A DNA stretch of 64,000 nucleotides, taken from positions 62,001 through 126,000 of the forward strand of contig CASDTX010000016.1 of the NCBI GenBank assembly GCA_949283695.1, written 5' to 3'. Made by a program: the position numbers and the translations under genes. A model generated the notes under the pieces. It worked only from the letters and a program-made list of their open reading frames with translations. It did no database searches and had not been told where the DNA came from. Below are positions 40,639 through 50,627 of this stretch, one piece after another (within the stretch, counting starts at the first letter, position 1; every line of letters begins with the position of its first letter). Source of the DNA: an uncultured Eubacteriales bacterium (GTDB lineage: Bacteria; Bacillota; Clostridia; Lachnospirales; Lachnospiraceae).

Positions 40639-42534
40639 ATGCAGATAACGGACCTTTGGATTCGGAATTTTAAGTCGATTCATGATATGCATATCAGCGG
40701 CATTGAGAATGCGCTGATCCTGGTGGGAAAGAATGATACCGGGAAAACAGCTGTCCTGGACGCTGTGCGTGCGGTGTGCGGGGACTACGCGGTGCGTGAA
40801 CAGGACTTTCAGGAAGATTTCCCCAATATATCGATCCGCGTGGAACTTCAGATCTCGGAGGAGGATCTGAAACAGTTTCACCGGTATGGGATTGTGAGTG
40901 CATACCGGAGATATGAGGCGTGGTACCGAGATTTCTGCGGCAGAATCCCTTCTTACAGAGACAGAGAGGGAAGTCTGGTCTTCGAATATTCGGTCAACCG
41001 TGAGGGCCGTGTCCGTTATGACGATGGGTATCAGAAGAATAATCCCCACATCCCCCAGGTGCTGCCGCAGATTTTCCATATGGATGCACAGAGGGATTTG
41101 CGGCAGATGCAGGAAGATCTTCTGATGCTCCAGGAGGATGACTTGTTAAAGCAGATGCGATCCGGGTGCTGTATGTTTGACGTGGCGAAGGAATGTACCC
41201 ACTGTTTTGACTGTATCGGTCTGATCCGGCGGAAGACGACGGAGGAACTGAATGCCTTTGAGGCGGCAAAGCTCCTGGAATATAAACTGTATAATCTGAG
41301 CCTGGATACCTTTGCACGCAGGCTGAACGAGAATTTCCGCAGGAACGGAGGGCGGGGCCGGATCGAGTATGCCATGGATCTGGGCATTGAGAATACCCTT
41401 CGTGTTACAGCCGGGATCCGGCATGAAGAGCGCGGGGACGGGGAGACGCAGACAGGCCGTGATAGAACGGAGAAGCTCCGGCCCGTGGAGAGCATGGGCA
41501 AGGGAATGCGCAGTATTTATATGCTGTCCCTCCTGGAAACCTGCGGCGGAGACGAGACTGCCGAGAGCGGGGGGCTGCTCCTGGTTGAAGTGCCGGAGAT
41601 CTATCTGCATCCCAGGCTTCAGCGGGTGTCAGGAGATATCCTGTACCGCCTCTCCCGGAAGAACCAGGTGCTTTTTACCACCCATTCACCGAACCTGCTG
41701 TCGAACTTTAACAGCAGGCAGATCCGTCAGATTTATCTGGACGATGAAGGGTTCTCCAGGGTGAGGGAGCGGACGGATATCAGCGCCGTGCTGGATGATC
41801 TGGGGTACTCTGCCAATGATCTGATGAATGTGAATTTCGTGTTTATCGTGGAAGGCAAGCAAGATAAGAGCAGGCTGCCGCTGCTTCTTAAGAAGTATTA
41901 TTCAGAGATTTATGACAGAGAGGGGAATCTGTCCCGCATTGCCATCATTACAACCAACAGCTGTACGAACATTAAGACGTATGCGAACCTGAAGTACATG
42001 AACCAGATTTACATCCGCGATAATTTCCTCATGATCCGCGACGGAGACGGCAAAGACCGGGAAGAACTTCGGTCCGGCCTCTGTAAATACTACGCCCGGC
42101 GCAGTGAGGAGGATGCGGATAAACTGCCCAGGGTGACGGAGAAGAATGTGCTCGTACTGAAATATTATTCCTTCGAGAATTATTTCCTCAACCCGGAAGT
42201 GATGGAGAGCATCGGCGTGCTGAATTCCGCGGAGGAGTTCTATGAGATCTTCCTGGAGAAGTGGAAAGAGTATCTGTACCGGATCAAAAGCGGAAAGAAA
42301 CTGGTGCAGGTGATCGGACACGAGATTGCCGCGGTGCAGGATGTCCGGGATCATATGGAAGAGATCCGGATCCATCTGCGGGGGCATAATCTGTACGATA
42401 TCTTCTATGGAAGATATAAGGACAGAGAGCAGGAGATCCTGGCAGAATATATCGCAGCCGCACCGCGGGAGGACTTTGCCGATATCCTGGATCCGATTGA
42501 ACAGTTTATTTATTTTGAAAACAGAAAGAAGTGA
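40639..42534 (+). CDS. OLD-family ATPase with TOPRIM domain and cysteine cluster
   Basis: A 631-residue protein in which an ABC/SMC-type ATPase is followed by a TOPRIM nuclease-like domain. The N-terminus has FKSIHDMHISGIENALIL and Walker A GKNDTGKTAV near 30-39. The ATPase lobe resumes with MGKGMRSIYMLSLLE and TTHSPNLLSNF. TOPRIM residues are Glu405 (FIVEGKQDK) and DGD at 468-470. Between the ATPase halves lies a cluster of five Cys (177, 178, 186, 189, 192; pattern C-x7-C-x2-C-x2-C) that could bind zinc or an iron-sulphur cluster. DNA repair or defence is suggested by family, but this variant's function is unknown. Confidence 0.8.
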   Translation: MQITDLWIRNFKSIHDMHISGIENALILVGKNDTGKTAVLDAVRAVCGDYAVREQDFQEDFPNISIRVELQISEEDLKQFHRYGIVSAYRRYEAWYRDFCGRIPSYRDREGSLVFEYSVNREGRVRYDDGYQKNNPHIPQVLPQIFHMDAQRDLRQMQEDLLMLQEDDLLKQMRSGCCMFDVAKECTHCFDCIGLIRRKTTEELNAFEAAKLLEYKLYNLSLDTFARRLNENFRRNGGRGRIEYAMDLGIENTLRVTAGIRHEERGDGETQTGRDRTEKLRPVESMGKGMRSIYMLSLLETCGGDETAESGGLLLVEVPEIYLHPRLQRVSGDILYRLSRKNQVLFTTHSPNLLSNFNSRQIRQIYLDDEGFSRVRERTDISAVLDDLGYSANDLMNVNFVFIVEGKQDKSRLPLLLKKYYSEIYDREGNLSRIAIITTNSCTNIKTYANLKYMNQIYIRDNFLMIRDGDGKDREELRSGLCKYYARRSEEDADKLPRVTEKNVLVLKYYSFENYFLNPEVMESIGVLNSAEEFYEIFLEKWKEYLYRIKSGKKLVQVIGHEIAAVQDVRDHMEEIRIHLRGHNLYDIFYGRYKDREQEILAEYIAAAPREDFADILDPIEQFIYFENRKK

Positions 42535-42553
42535 CGGAGGCTAATTTCCGTCG

Positions 42554-42582
42554 TTGAAGAATCCCGGGTCTTGTTATATAAT
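42554..42582 (+). promoter_or_regulatory. Promoter for the sirtuin-like gene, gltX and helicase
   Basis: TTGAAG at 42554-42559 and a perfect TATAAT at 42577-42582 are 17 bases apart. No terminator is visible before 46.6 kb, so three genes probably share it. Confidence 0.6.
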
Positions 42583-42639
42583 ACCTTCATAGGAACAACA
42601 TCTGCCGAATCGTACGGCAGCAGGAGGGAGGTATCTTTT

Positions 42640-43386
42640 ATGAAAGAGAAAAACTTACTTCAGATCCTGCGTGACAGCAGGTATACGGTTGTCTTAAGCG
42701 GTGCGGGCCTTATGGCCGAGAGTGGGTATCCGCTTCTGAGAGACGGGGCTGAGTCATATGATATCGAAGCGAAGTATGGCTACTCATTTGAAGAAATCTT
42801 TAACAGCGGGTTCTATTCCGCGAGGAAAGAGCTGTTTTTCCGTTTTTATAAAGAAGTGGTCTTAAAAGCAGCAGAAATGCCGCCCGGAGAGGGCTTCTGT
42901 GCACTGAAAACCCTTCAGGATCACGGCCTTGTGGATTCCATTGTGACCCGCCGGATCGCGGGCCTGGAAGACCGGGCAGGATGCCGCAATGTGATCAACC
43001 TGAAGGGAACGATCTTTGACAACACCTGTCCGGTGTGCGGCAGGCAGTATCCGGTAGAATATATCCGGGAGTCCAAAGGGGTTCCCCTGTGTGAGAAATG
43101 TATGGTCGCTATCCGTCCGAACGTTTGTCTGTTCGGGGAGATGATTGATAACGGCCGCATGACCAGGGCAGCCCAGGAGGTAGAGAAAGCAGATGTGCTC
43201 CTTGTGCTCGGGGCGAGCCTGACATCCCCGCTGTGCAGCCAGATGCTGCAGTATTATACAGGCTCGAATCTGATTCTTGTGAAGGGGATCACAGGGACCG
43301 AGCAGTATTCGGATCAGAGGGCGGATATCGTGATCGAAGGAAGATGTGACGAGTTCCTGAGAAGCCTTGCTGCCGGATGCGAATAA
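42640..43386 (+). CDS. Sirtuin-like (Sir2 fold) protein with altered active site
   Basis: A 248-residue Sir2-family protein. Retained features are GAG at 21-23, a four-Cys zinc site (CPVC at 130-133, CEKC at 151-154), LFGEMI, and VLGASL near the end of the NAD-binding fold. Several normally invariant residues differ: the GIPDFR loop reads GYPLLR, the TQNID motif reads TRRIA at 103-107, and the catalytic His of LHG is Lys122 (NLKG). Deacetylation by the standard mechanism therefore seems unlikely; NAD or ADP-ribose binding may remain. The ATG has GGAGGGAGG upstream, and gltX follows after 26 bases. Confidence 0.8.
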
Positions 43387-47221: not shown

Positions 47222-48217
47222 ATGAAGCAGAAAGGGATCAAAATCATTCTGACAGCGGTGTCTGCTGTTATTCTCCTTGCCGGCTGCAAGGAAAATGTAG
47301 GGACTCCAGAAGATAATGCTGTAGTAGAAGAACCGGAGGAAGACAATCAACAGACGGAGGGAGGACGTCTGATCGGGCTGAGCTGTCCGGATCTGGAGGA
47401 TCCCTTTTATTATGTGCTCAAAGAGTGTATCAAGACAGAACTTGAGGAGCATGGGGACCAGATTCTGGTTCAGAGCGCCGGCGGGGATGCCGGGCAGCAG
47501 AAGGAACAGATCGTGAAGATGATTGATTCCGGGATTGATGCGCTGGTGATCTGGCCGACAGATCCGGAAGCGCTGGATCCGTCTTTGGAAGCGCTGGATA
47601 AGGCCGGGATTCCGGTTGTGGATCTGGGAGTCCGGCTGAAAGATGCCGGATCTGCGGAAGCATTCATCGGGATCGACGGCAGTAATGCAGGAAGCGTCTG
47701 CGCTGAGGATCTGAAAGAGAAGAGACCGGACGGAGGAACGCTTGTCATTGTCGACAGTCCGGACAGTATCTCTGTGAATGAGCGTATTACCGGATTCGAA
47801 GAAAAGATTGCAAACAGTGGATTTGAGGTGGTGGAGCGGATCGACGCAGGAAGCGGGACAGATACCGTGAAGAGCAGGATGGCCCAGACCTTAAGCGATA
47901 ATCCGAAGCTGGATGCCGTTATGTGCGGAAGTGACCAGATGGCTCTGGAGGTGCTGGAGGCTCTGGAAGAAGCCGGACAGGAGAATGTTCTTGTATACAG
48001 TGTGGGCGGTTCGCCGGAGGTGAAAACGGTTCTGGCAGAGCCGGGAAGCTCTATGGCCGGCGTCGGCGCACTGTCCCCGATTCATATGGGCAAGCAGGCG
48101 GGAGAAACCGTAATCGCGGTCTTAGAAGGCGGGGACTACGAGAAAGAATTCTATGTAGAGACATTTTTTATTGGCCGGGAGAATGTTGAGATGTACGGGA
48201 CAGACGGCTGGCAGTGA
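47222..48217 (+). CDS. Substrate-binding lipoprotein, ribose-binding (type 1 periplasmic) family
   Basis: A 331-residue lipoprotein with signal peptide and lipobox LLAGC (Cys at about residue 22), an acidic linker rich in Glu, then a two-lobed sugar-binding domain of the RbsB type (RLIGLSCPDLEDPFYYVLKE, IDALVIWPTDPEAL, GIPVVDLGV, DAVMCGSDQMALEVLEAL). The usual ABC ATPase and permease are missing from the neighbourhood, so it may be a sensor part or use a transporter encoded elsewhere. The ligand is unknown. The GH13-like gene starts 14 bases after its stop. Confidence 0.85.
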   Translation: MKQKGIKIILTAVSAVILLAGCKENVGTPEDNAVVEEPEEDNQQTEGGRLIGLSCPDLEDPFYYVLKECIKTELEEHGDQILVQSAGGDAGQQKEQIVKMIDSGIDALVIWPTDPEALDPSLEALDKAGIPVVDLGVRLKDAGSAEAFIGIDGSNAGSVCAEDLKEKRPDGGTLVIVDSPDSISVNERITGFEEKIANSGFEVVERIDAGSGTDTVKSRMAQTLSDNPKLDAVMCGSDQMALEVLEALEEAGQENVLVYSVGGSPEVKTVLAEPGSSMAGVGALSPIHMGKQAGETVIAVLEGGDYEKEFYVETFFIGRENVEMYGTDGWQ

Positions 48218-48231
48218 GAAAGGAACGGAAT

Positions 48232-50052
48232 ATGAAGAAAACGACAGGAAGGCCGCAGCCCTTTGGCGCAGCCGTAGAAGGAAGCAGAGTGAACTTCGCA
48301 GTACAGGTGCGCGCCGGCAAGACCTGTGAGCTTCTGCTTTACAGAAAAGGGCGAAAAAGTCCGCAGATCAGTTATGACATGCCGGAGGAAGAAGGGATCG
48401 GTGAGGTCCGGTTCCTGGCAGTAGAAGAGATCAACCCGGAGCAGTATGAATATAATTTCCTGATTGACGGGAAGGTTACCGTCGATCCTTTCGTGCGTGA
48501 ACTTACCGGGAGAGAAACGTTCGGGAAAAGGAAGGAAAGCTCCGAACATGCGGTCCGCGGGAAGCTGGTACGGCCGGAATATGACTGGAAGGGAGACGCA
48601 AGACTGGGGCTTCCATGGAATGATGTGGTTGCGTACAGTCTCCACGTGCGGGGATTTACAAAGCACAGTTCTTCAAAGGTACCGCATAAAGGCACCTATC
48701 AGGGTGTGATCGAGAAAATCCCTTATCTGAAGGAGCTGGGCATCAATCAGATCCAGTGTATGCCGGTCTATGAGTTTGAAGAGTGTACGAAGACGAAAGT
48801 GAATTACTGGGGATATGGACCGGCTTATTATTTCGCGCCCAAGGAAGCTTATGCCTCCGGGAATTCGGCGGTCCGTGAACTCAAAGATATGATCCGCGAA
48901 TGTCACAGCGCGGGCATTGAGGTTGTTCTGGAGATGCCGTTTACGGCAGAGATCTCTGCCCACACGGCTGTGGAATGTCTGCGTTTCTATATGCTGGAGT
49001 ATCATGTGGACGGGTTCGTGATCAACCCGTACAGCGTTCCGTGGGAGATCCTGTCAGCGGATCCGCTACTGAAAGCGGTGAAACTGATGCGCAAAGATGA
49101 CGCCTTTCAGAATATTATGCGGCGTTTCCTGAAGGGTGATGAAAATATGGTAAATGACGTGATGTGGGCACTCTGGCACAATTCCTCTGTGGACGGGAAG
49201 TGCAACTATATCACCACCCAGACCGGGTTTACCATGTGGGATCTGGTGTCCTATGACTGGAAGCATAATGAAGACAACGGCGAGAATAATACGGACGGCC
49301 CGGACTACAATTACAGCTGGAACTGCGGAGCGGAAGGCCCCAGCAGGAAGAAGGCGGTGATGGCTTTAAGGAACAGCCAGGTAAGAAACGCGTTTCAGCT
49401 CCTTCTGACTGCACAGGGCACACCGTGCATTCTTGCCGGCGACGAGTTCTTTAACAGCCAGAAAGGGAATAATAATGTATACTGTCAGGATAATGAGACG
49501 GGATGGGTGGACTGGAGCCGGCTCAAAACAGATGATTCTCTGTTCCGGTATGTGAAGGAACTGATCGCGTTCCGCCGGAAACATCCGTGTATGCACCAGG
49601 CGAAGGAACTGAAAGGGCTGGATCAGACTGCCTGCGGGCTTCCGGATGTGTCCTATCACGGAGAAAATGCATGGCAGGTGAACGCAGGCGTTCCCAGCCG
49701 GCAGCTGGGCGTGATGTACTCCGGGTCAGGGGTGAATGATGATGATTGCTTTGCAGCGTATAACATGCACTGGGAACCGCATCCCTTTGCACTTCCGTCT
49801 CCGGGGAAGGGGAAGGAATGGCTGGCGGCATCGATCCCCGGACAGGGCATCCTGGAGACACCGGCATGTCTGGAGAATCAGCAGCGGATGGAAATCGCGG
49901 GGCGCAGCATCGCACTTCTGGTAAGCAGAAAGAAGGAGAAGCCTGCCAGCACCGGCAGGAAGAAGAAGGCGAAACAGCCTGCCAGGACAGAATGCGCGGC
50001 AGAAGCTGAAAAAGAAAGCGTGAAAAAAGGCGGCGAAGAAAAGAAGTCATGA
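48232..50052 (+). CDS. GH13/isoamylase-like protein lacking catalytic residues (pseudoenzyme)
   Basis: A 606-residue homologue of GlgX/isoamylase glycogen-debranching enzymes: N-terminal CBM48-like domain (about 7-95), barrel region with NYWGYGPAYYFAP, and TGFTMWDLVSYDWKHNE plus YNYSWNCGAEG of the GlgX group. Residues of all four GH13 motifs are lost. DVVxNH becomes EMPFTA at 234-239; the nucleophile Asp of GFRFD is Asn265; the segment carrying the acid Glu is deleted; HD of region IV is Gln330-Thr331. It ends in a Lys-rich tail. It probably binds glucan without cleaving it. The next gene overlaps by ATGA. Confidence 0.85.
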   Translation: MKKTTGRPQPFGAAVEGSRVNFAVQVRAGKTCELLLYRKGRKSPQISYDMPEEEGIGEVRFLAVEEINPEQYEYNFLIDGKVTVDPFVRELTGRETFGKRKESSEHAVRGKLVRPEYDWKGDARLGLPWNDVVAYSLHVRGFTKHSSSKVPHKGTYQGVIEKIPYLKELGINQIQCMPVYEFEECTKTKVNYWGYGPAYYFAPKEAYASGNSAVRELKDMIRECHSAGIEVVLEMPFTAEISAHTAVECLRFYMLEYHVDGFVINPYSVPWEILSADPLLKAVKLMRKDDAFQNIMRRFLKGDENMVNDVMWALWHNSSVDGKCNYITTQTGFTMWDLVSYDWKHNEDNGENNTDGPDYNYSWNCGAEGPSRKKAVMALRNSQVRNAFQLLLTAQGTPCILAGDEFFNSQKGNNNVYCQDNETGWVDWSRLKTDDSLFRYVKELIAFRRKHPCMHQAKELKGLDQTACGLPDVSYHGENAWQVNAGVPSRQLGVMYSGSGVNDDDCFAAYNMHWEPHPFALPSPGKGKEWLAASIPGQGILETPACLENQQRMEIAGRSIALLVSRKKEKPASTGRKKKAKQPARTECAAEAEKESVKKGGEEKKS

Positions 50053-50627
50053 AGGCAGTACAGCATTTTCGGACCATAACAAAACATAAAATCCTTGTCA
50101 TGAAGGAATGCTTTCGGGTAGGGCTCTTCCGGCAGGGCCTGCTCCACGATCTGTCGAAGTACAGCTGGACAGAATTCCGGGTGGGATGTAAGTACTACCA
50201 GGGAACAAGGAGCCCCAATAACGCGGAGCGTGAGGACAGAGGGTATTCTTCTGCATGGCTGCATCACAAAGGAAGAAATAAGCATCACTATGAGTATTGG
50301 ATCGATTACAGTCTGGACGGAACTCATATGCTGACCGGGATGAAGATGCCGGTGCGGTATGTGGTAGAGATGTTTCTTGACCGGATCGCTGCCAGCAAGG
50401 TCTATAAGGGAAGCAGTTACCGGGACAGTGATCCGCTGGAATACTACCTGCACGGAAAGGCAGGGGAGCTGATGCACAGGGAGACCCGCGCTCTGCTGGA
50501 AAGACTTCTCCATATGCTGGCAGAGCAGGGCGAGGAGAAGACCTACCAGTATATCAGAGATAACGTGATGAAAAAGAAAAGAAGAACCAGAGTTGGGAGA
50601 AGACGGAAAGCCTCCCTCTCTGTATAA
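50049..50627 (+). CDS. DUF5662 family protein with HD-like histidine motifs
   Basis: A 192-residue soluble protein that I assign to DUF5662 from LFRQGLLHDLSKYSWTEF near the start and the later HHKGRNKHHYEYW. His33-Asp34 and the pairs His72/73 and His79/80 resemble a metal site of HD-type hydrolases, but activity is unproven. The last 20 residues are strongly basic (KKKRRTRVGRRRK). Its start codon overlaps the stop of the GH13-like gene by ATGA, so the two are translationally coupled. A terminator follows at once. Confidence 0.75.
   Translation: MKAVQHFRTITKHKILVMKECFRVGLFRQGLLHDLSKYSWTEFRVGCKYYQGTRSPNNAEREDRGYSSAWLHHKGRNKHHYEYWIDYSLDGTHMLTGMKMPVRYVVEMFLDRIAASKVYKGSSYRDSDPLEYYLHGKAGELMHRETRALLERLLHMLAEQGEEKTYQYIRDNVMKKKRRTRVGRRRKASLSV

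Follow-up and report, generated by a model that had tools for sequence, protein, structure and literature searches.

Gene content of the locus

The window, the whole 64,000-nucleotide stretch of DNA analysed here, belongs to a 2.9-Mb genome (66 contigs, 79% complete) and carries a gene for a protein homologous to the glycogen-debranching enzyme GlgX, which we call pseudo-GlgX. The gene is flanked on the same strand by genes for a sugar-binding lipoprotein and a DUF5662 protein:

47222..48217, plus strand: upstream gene for a sugar-binding lipoprotein (Peripla_BP_4), its lipoprotein nature read by eye from the start of the protein
48232..50052, plus strand: pseudo-GlgX coding sequence with an ATG start (606 codons, 606 amino acids)
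50049..50627, plus strand: downstream gene of the Pfam family DUF5662 (PF18907)

The preliminary description of this DNA reported an intact frame of 606 codons for pseudo-GlgX, and the sequence is indeed free of stops from 48232 to 50052. An in-frame GTG at position 48214 provides an alternative start, which extends the protein to 612 amino acids with 0 internal stops. This GTG overlaps the stop codon of the lipoprotein gene (GTGA), and the stop codon of the pseudo-GlgX gene overlaps the ATG of the DUF5662 gene (ATGA). Elsewhere in the window, an AAA ATPase gene (AAA_15/AAA_21; 40639-43386) adjoins a Sir2-family gene and lies upstream of a glutamyl-tRNA-synthetase-like gene (identified by eye) and a UvrD-type helicase gene.

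The nearest NCBIfam model for pseudo-GlgX is TIGR02100 (GlgX), with a score of 317.5 bits that is half the curated cut-off (640.9 bits) and leaves the protein outside the equivalog family; some GlgX proteins of the family that we scored as active also fall slightly under this cut-off (600-640 bits). A sequence search of the PDB retrieved TreX/GlgX, isoamylase 1 (ISA1) and isoamylase 2 (ISA2) chains with E values down to 2.6e-69, and the best profile matches were ISA1 and TreX/GlgX chains rather than ISA2. The similarity to GlgX and isoamylases is significant across the barrel and the C-terminal domain, which places the protein by homology in GH13_11. Pfam recognised the alpha-amylase domain over 87 residues only. 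GlgX proteins (TIGR02100, GH13_11) are homologous to pseudo-GlgX overall, with 88 columns conserved in both forms at 85% or more, and differ from it in having the catalytic motifs that pseudo-GlgX has lost. The GlgX paralogue encoded in the same genome is also longer (a 719-amino acid open frame, compared to the 606 amino acids of pseudo-GlgX).

Loss of the catalytic site in pseudo-GlgX and its relatives

Using the genome's own intact paralogue (L011/L155) as the reference, we located the former catalytic regions as follows:

48916..48951, plus strand: former region I, IEVVLEMPFTAE; D290, N294 and H295 of the active form are replaced by E234, T238 and A239 (Glu234, Thr238, Ala239)
48952..48967, plus strand: approximate position at which the beta3-beta4 (domain B) loop has been lost, columns 303-338 of the active form (L155 numbering)
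49000..49026, plus strand: former region II, YHVDGFVIN; the arginine is replaced by Val263 and the nucleophile aspartate by Asn265
49075..49101, plus strand: former region III, AVKLMRKDD where the active form has VKLIAEAWD; the acid/base glutamate is lost and the next loop is shortened
49204..49233, plus strand: former region IV, NYITTQTGFT; His-Asp is replaced by Gln330-Thr331

The alignment bears out the earlier claim that residues have been lost in all four GH13 motifs. The residues that it named are gone; the extent of the loss was understated, as deletions have also removed the greater part of the loop that separates regions I and II and some of the sequence after region II. Regions I and II lie about 50 residues closer together than in the intact paralogue. 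Region III, the least certain of the four in its alignment, reads KLMRKDD against KLIAEAWD in the paralogue and has a deletion directly behind it.

To place these losses in the family, we read the motifs in 165 pseudo-GlgX rows (63 representatives, 27 further rows and 75 newly read). The reading covers 156 of the 192 carrier genomes described below (the window's own genome, 80 loci and 75 more); for G114, it covers a frame of 450 residues only. None of the 165 rows, including those from the 156 carriers, has the nucleophile and the acid together. The nucleophile aspartate is absent from 163 of them, a conserved loss like that of the ISA2-type pseudo-isoamylases. The acid/base glutamate column is kept in at most 19 rows, the region I aspartate in 19 and the region II arginine in 15. 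Region IV keeps its histidine in 68 rows, its aspartate in 33 and both in 22, so the decay of the site is uneven, with either the region IV His-Asp pair or the acid glutamate column persisting in some proteins. Every row keeps three or fewer of the eight catalytic-site residues, all of which are present in the 31 active rows (31 of 31) used as a control. Hence, the Asp/Glu/Asp triad and the region I-IV motifs that mark GlgX are lacking in pseudo-GlgX. Furthermore, columns 303-338 are empty in 165 of 165 rows and hold 36 residues in the active ones (median and maximum alike), and at the active-invariant columns 372-384, 98-100% of the 63 representatives have a gap. The nucleophile aspartate survives in two proteins, L077:8073-9824 (genome G005) and L358 (genome G242), where the acid and the loop are gone; these are possibly relic states.

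In the 80 named loci closest to the window, the nucleophile position is an asparagine without exception (80/80) and the region IV aspartate is missing in all 79 that are readable there. We sought a near orthologue with intact motifs among these 80 loci and encountered none, and losses of the same kind were found in most of the sampled genera of the family. An oddity confined to the window is ruled out by the catalytic losses in 80 of 80 named loci.

Selective retention of a GlgX segment

The columns shared with active GlgX are concentrated in one part of the protein:

49225..49515, plus strand: retained GlgX segment GFT..DLVSY..KHNEDNGENNTDG..YSWNCGAEG..GDE..GNNNVYCQDN..W

We based this assessment on 213 columns that are invariant in active GlgX and counted a column as kept when at least 85% of the 63 pseudo-GlgX representatives conserve it. 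Segments were named from the order of elements in the GH13 barrel. The beta7-beta8 and GDE/GNNN segment keeps 35 of 45 columns, in line with the preliminary description, which had GlgX-specific motifs retained. The C-terminal part keeps 9/9 and beta1-beta3 18/37. Retention is low in region I and the loop (1/33), in the stretch that starts with region II and ends behind region III (3/46), before region IV (2/8) and in the region IV core (0/6). It is also low in the N-terminal CBM48 part (5/29). Together with the lack of any match to Pfam CBM_48 (PF02922) at E<=1, this gives no support to the earlier claim of a well-kept CBM48 and leaves the protein unassigned to that family. The retention of beta7-beta8 stands out against the rest of the protein (35/45 vs 38/168; Fisher 1.5e-11), also when the catalytic regions are excluded (35/45 vs 34/83; 8e-5).

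Such a pattern would arise if the protein still used one face of the former substrate cleft. We propose that the segment at 49225..49515 could be a glucan-holding face, and the retention of this GlgX-specific part argues for glucan still being the ligand. Alternatively, the retained residues may represent the structural core only.

Distribution, origin and selection

The window probably comes from a genome of the Mediterraneibacter group, judging from the nearest named records (GTDB genomes), which are mostly Mediterraneibacter, followed by Faecalicatena, Muricomes, Schaedlerella, Extibacter, Sporofaciens and Dorea. Strong matches to pseudo-GlgX are present in 57 of 58 genomes of the same genus, some of them in pieces at contig ends; in the exception (G264, 88% complete) we saw the active type alone.

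Across the Lachnospiraceae, a large family of gut bacteria, we searched 250 genomes (one per genus) with a profile (A1) of 63 pseudo-GlgX proteins with mutual identity below 60%, drawn from the window gene and 79 of the 80 family-wide loci (L110 was left out). At E<=1e-130, with the best five or fewer candidates per genome scored, this profile identified pseudo-GlgX in 192 of the 250 genera. The tally counts G074, G130, G147 and G189 (E of 1e-101 to 1e-114, no active GlgX) as lacking it; their proteins may be diverged members of the group. Weak matches (E of ~1e-17 to 1e-31) in G030, G062, G109, G131, G151, G160, G162, G199 and G202 were ambiguous. In a sample of the class (291 genomes), pseudo-GlgX was present in 8 of the 10 Lachnospiraceae members and in none of the 281 genomes from other families. 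The six strongest matches outside the family all align in two pieces that break at profile position 255-256, the site of the deletion in pseudo-GlgX, and all six have the active-form motifs of regions I and IV; the region II/III patterns fitted four of the six and did not fit L250 and L251.

A quick IQ-TREE phylogeny (LG+G4, 584 columns) of 30 of the 63 pseudo-GlgX representatives, 16 of the 31 active proteins of the family, 6 active-type proteins from outside it and E. coli GlgX placed all pseudo-GlgX rows on one side of a branch with an SH-aLRT support of 100; the pseudo-GlgX branches are long and their order within the clade is unsure. The common deletions and the single, fully supported branch fit a single origin. 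Thus, the catalytic residues and the beta3-beta4 loop of the active site appear to have been lost once, in an ancestral GlgX/isoamylase copy of the Lachnospiraceae.

Judging from substitution rates, the descendants of this copy are under strong purifying selection. The comparison of nonsynonymous and synonymous change (NG86) in 69 orthologues gave a median dN/dS of 0.070 (range 0.038-0.149) in the 19 of 2346 pairs with dS <1.5, the remaining pairs being near dS saturation. The breadth of the orthologues, the dN/dS values and the absence of an intact near orthologue strongly support the original suggestion that selection keeps a non-catalytic protein, and we regard it as close to certain that the protein exists and is conserved.

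Conserved gene neighborhood

The lipoprotein gene lies upstream in 76 and the DUF5662 gene downstream in 76 of the 80 named loci, which represent Mediterraneibacter and nearby genera, on the same strand as pseudo-GlgX (78 of the 80 loci have more than 1 kb on either side). Median gaps are about -11 bases on the lipoprotein side and about 3 bases on the DUF5662 side; both values are approximate, as they depend on where tblastn matches end and open frames begin. A neighbor test on the family-wide set (80 loci) detected a DUF5662 gene in 44 loci, the lipoprotein gene in 24 and a TraX-family gene in 24, and clustering of the neighborhoods yielded DUF5662 in 40 and TraX in 22, with the window locus also grouped with DUF5662. 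In 12 of the 80 (L063-L065, L067, L068, L070, L072, L074, L081, L084, L115 and L134), pseudo-GlgX and DUF5662 are separated by a gene for a TraX-family membrane protein. In another arrangement (L094, genome G133), active GlgX and pseudo-GlgX are about 1.6 kb apart on opposite strands.

The lipoprotein and DUF5662 neighbors are not glycogen genes, and no glycogen gene recurs beside pseudo-GlgX among the neighborhood clusters listed. This, the tight linkage in the named loci and the presence of DUF5662 and/or TraX shortly downstream in many diverged family members would be consistent with recruitment away from glycogen, with the protein acting as a folded scaffold or sensor together with the lipoprotein, DUF5662 and, in some genera, TraX in roles such as sugar sensing or envelope modification. 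We view such recruitment as conceivable but doubtful. DUF5662 is present in 208 of the 250 genomes, including some without pseudo-GlgX (G002, G021), so the signal is linkage rather than presence, and DUF5662 is not supported as a strict co-occurring partner. Furthermore, the lipoprotein is a neighbor in only 24 of the family-wide loci, and the conservation of the GlgX-specific part favors glucan as the present-day ligand.

Co-occurrence with glycogen enzymes

We called a GlgX active when it scored >600 bits with TIGR02100, with the best four or fewer candidates per genome scored. Active GlgX is encoded in 79 of the 250 genomes (77 over 600 bits and two fragmentary cases, G042 and G048); 73 genomes have both forms, 119 have pseudo-GlgX alone, 6 have active GlgX alone and 52 have neither. 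The higher frequency of pseudo-GlgX in genomes with active GlgX (73/79 vs 119/171 in the others; odds ratio 5.3, p=4e-5) and the precedent of plant ISA2 would fit an ISA2-type protein that is an obligate partner of the same cell's active GlgX. However, a full-length active GlgX was not found, among the best four or fewer candidates scored per genome, in 119 of the 192 carriers, among them genomes of high quality, for example G191 (one contig, 99% complete), G072 and G138 (both 100%). Pseudo-GlgX is therefore not simply a partner of GlgX, a role as a simple scaffold for the active enzyme is argued against, and its obligate pairing with the active enzyme is unlikely. The glycogen synthase gene glgA is over its cut-off in 189 of the 192 carriers and 242 of the 250 genomes, an association (p=0.018) that depends on 8 genomes without glgA (two 67% and one 61% complete); since glgA is nearly universal, its co-occurrence with pseudo-GlgX tells little.

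We also surveyed potential partners in 12 genomes with pseudo-GlgX alone, hand-picked for quality (96-100% complete; 11 of the 12 pass a 90%/5% filter). Glycogen phosphorylase (GlgP) is present in all 12, type I pullulanase is over its cut-off in 2 and GDE_C is present in 1 with a weak match (26.3 bits). Ten of the genomes (G038, G084, G155, G191, G123, G145, G005, G138, G072 and G222) have GlgP and glgA, and active GlgX, type I pullulanase over its cut-off and GDE_C were not found in them; these families therefore leave the debranching step in the ten genomes unaccounted for. A neofunctionalised enzyme using new residues to cut or transfer alpha-glucans could fill this gap, and a few conserved residues are specific to pseudo-GlgX (D464, D472 and R490). 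We consider such an enzyme very unlikely: the nucleophile and the acid never occur together, the active-site loop is deleted, the gained residues form no evident catalytic set, and GH13 proteins of the neopullulanase/maltodextrin-glucosidase type, with region I, II and IV motifs by pattern, are encoded in G123 and G138. In G123 (99% complete), which also has GlgP, we saw three GH13 genes, encoding GlgB (L274), a relative of neopullulanase and maltodextrin-glucosidase (L263) and pseudo-GlgX. Based on this GH13 set and the partner survey, the neopullulanase type, GlgB or GlgP would be better candidate partners of pseudo-GlgX than active GlgX. A decaying pseudogene or an assembly error, for which one named orthologue broken into two frames in its record (L190, R. 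faecis JCM 15917) could speak, is rejected by the dN/dS of ~0.07 and the breadth of a single clade found in 57 of 58 genus genomes and 192 of 250 genera.

Proposed function and comparison with known systems

The loss of the cutting site in a protein that has been preserved suggests that the probable task of pseudo-GlgX is to hold or sense glycogen, not to cut it. We assign a probability of about 0.5 to pseudo-GlgX being a non-hydrolytic alpha-glucan-binding protein with a docking or regulatory role, a bacterial counterpart of plant ISA2. A glucan-binding scaffold or a regulator of glycogen enzymes, as guessed initially, is plausible and would fit the retained beta7-beta8 part. The protein would carry out no hydrolysis, and the beta7-beta8 and GDE/GNNN part would grip an alpha-glucan chain. 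If that grip persists, pseudo-GlgX could act as a docking or regulatory factor for glycogen or maltodextrin in the cytosol, presenting chains to the real enzymes (GlgP, GlgB and the neopullulanase-type GH13) or protecting chains for them. More tentatively, this loop-deleted GlgX descendant may read branched glucan across the family, as a glycogen-bound regulator or as a subunit to which phosphorylase, branching enzyme or neopullulanase docks.

Such a mode of action would resemble that of plant ISA2 and have been reached independently. ISA2 (GH13_11) is described as a noncatalytic isoamylase paralogue that lost the nucleophile in a common ancestor, evolves at an elevated rate and is kept throughout Chloroplastida (PMC12510319). 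In rice, according to a review, ISA2 is attached to ISA1, whose activity it raises, and binds four glucose units through its C-terminal segment (PMC12892837). Like ISA2, pseudo-GlgX is a GlgX/isoamylase paralogue that is under selection after the loss of the nucleophile and most catalytic residues in a common ancestor, and that evolves faster than its active paralogues (PMC12510319). ISA2 is a eukaryotic protein with an additional beta-sandwich at its N terminus and with ISA1 as its partner. By contrast, the pseudo-GlgX clade is bacterial and confined to the Lachnospiraceae in the class sample (0/281 elsewhere), lacks the beta3-beta4 loop, leaves no room for an extra domain in 606 amino acids and is found more often without active GlgX (119 genomes) than with it (73). 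We infer a probably separate origin of the two.

Another point of comparison is GlgD, a paralogue that has lost catalysis. As in the proposed role of pseudo-GlgX, GlgD is a regulatory paralogue in bacterial glycogen metabolism, described as the regulatory subunit of the ADP-glucose pyrophosphorylase GlgC (PMC10395257); it differs in belonging to another enzyme family and in having a known catalytic partner. Two glgX homologues are reported for Blautia obeum in the same source (PMC10395257). Among the papers listed in searches of the open-licence PMC literature, none describes a catalytically dead bacterial GlgX, which may be in print elsewhere, and none was returned for DUF5662.

Pseudo-GlgX is thus apparently a bacterial, family-wide pseudo-isoamylase independent of ISA2. 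If our reading is correct, the only GlgX-like protein in many Lachnospiraceae genera would be a non-cutter, and bacteria would have invented the ISA2 principle independently, in a form that is commoner in the family today than active GlgX. As some carriers are cultured, this independent bacterial case would offer a second system that can be tested by gene removal. Pathway reconstructions that take every GlgX homologue for a debranching enzyme would also be wrong in the genera where a GlgX-like gene is present and no full-length active GlgX was found (119 of 250).
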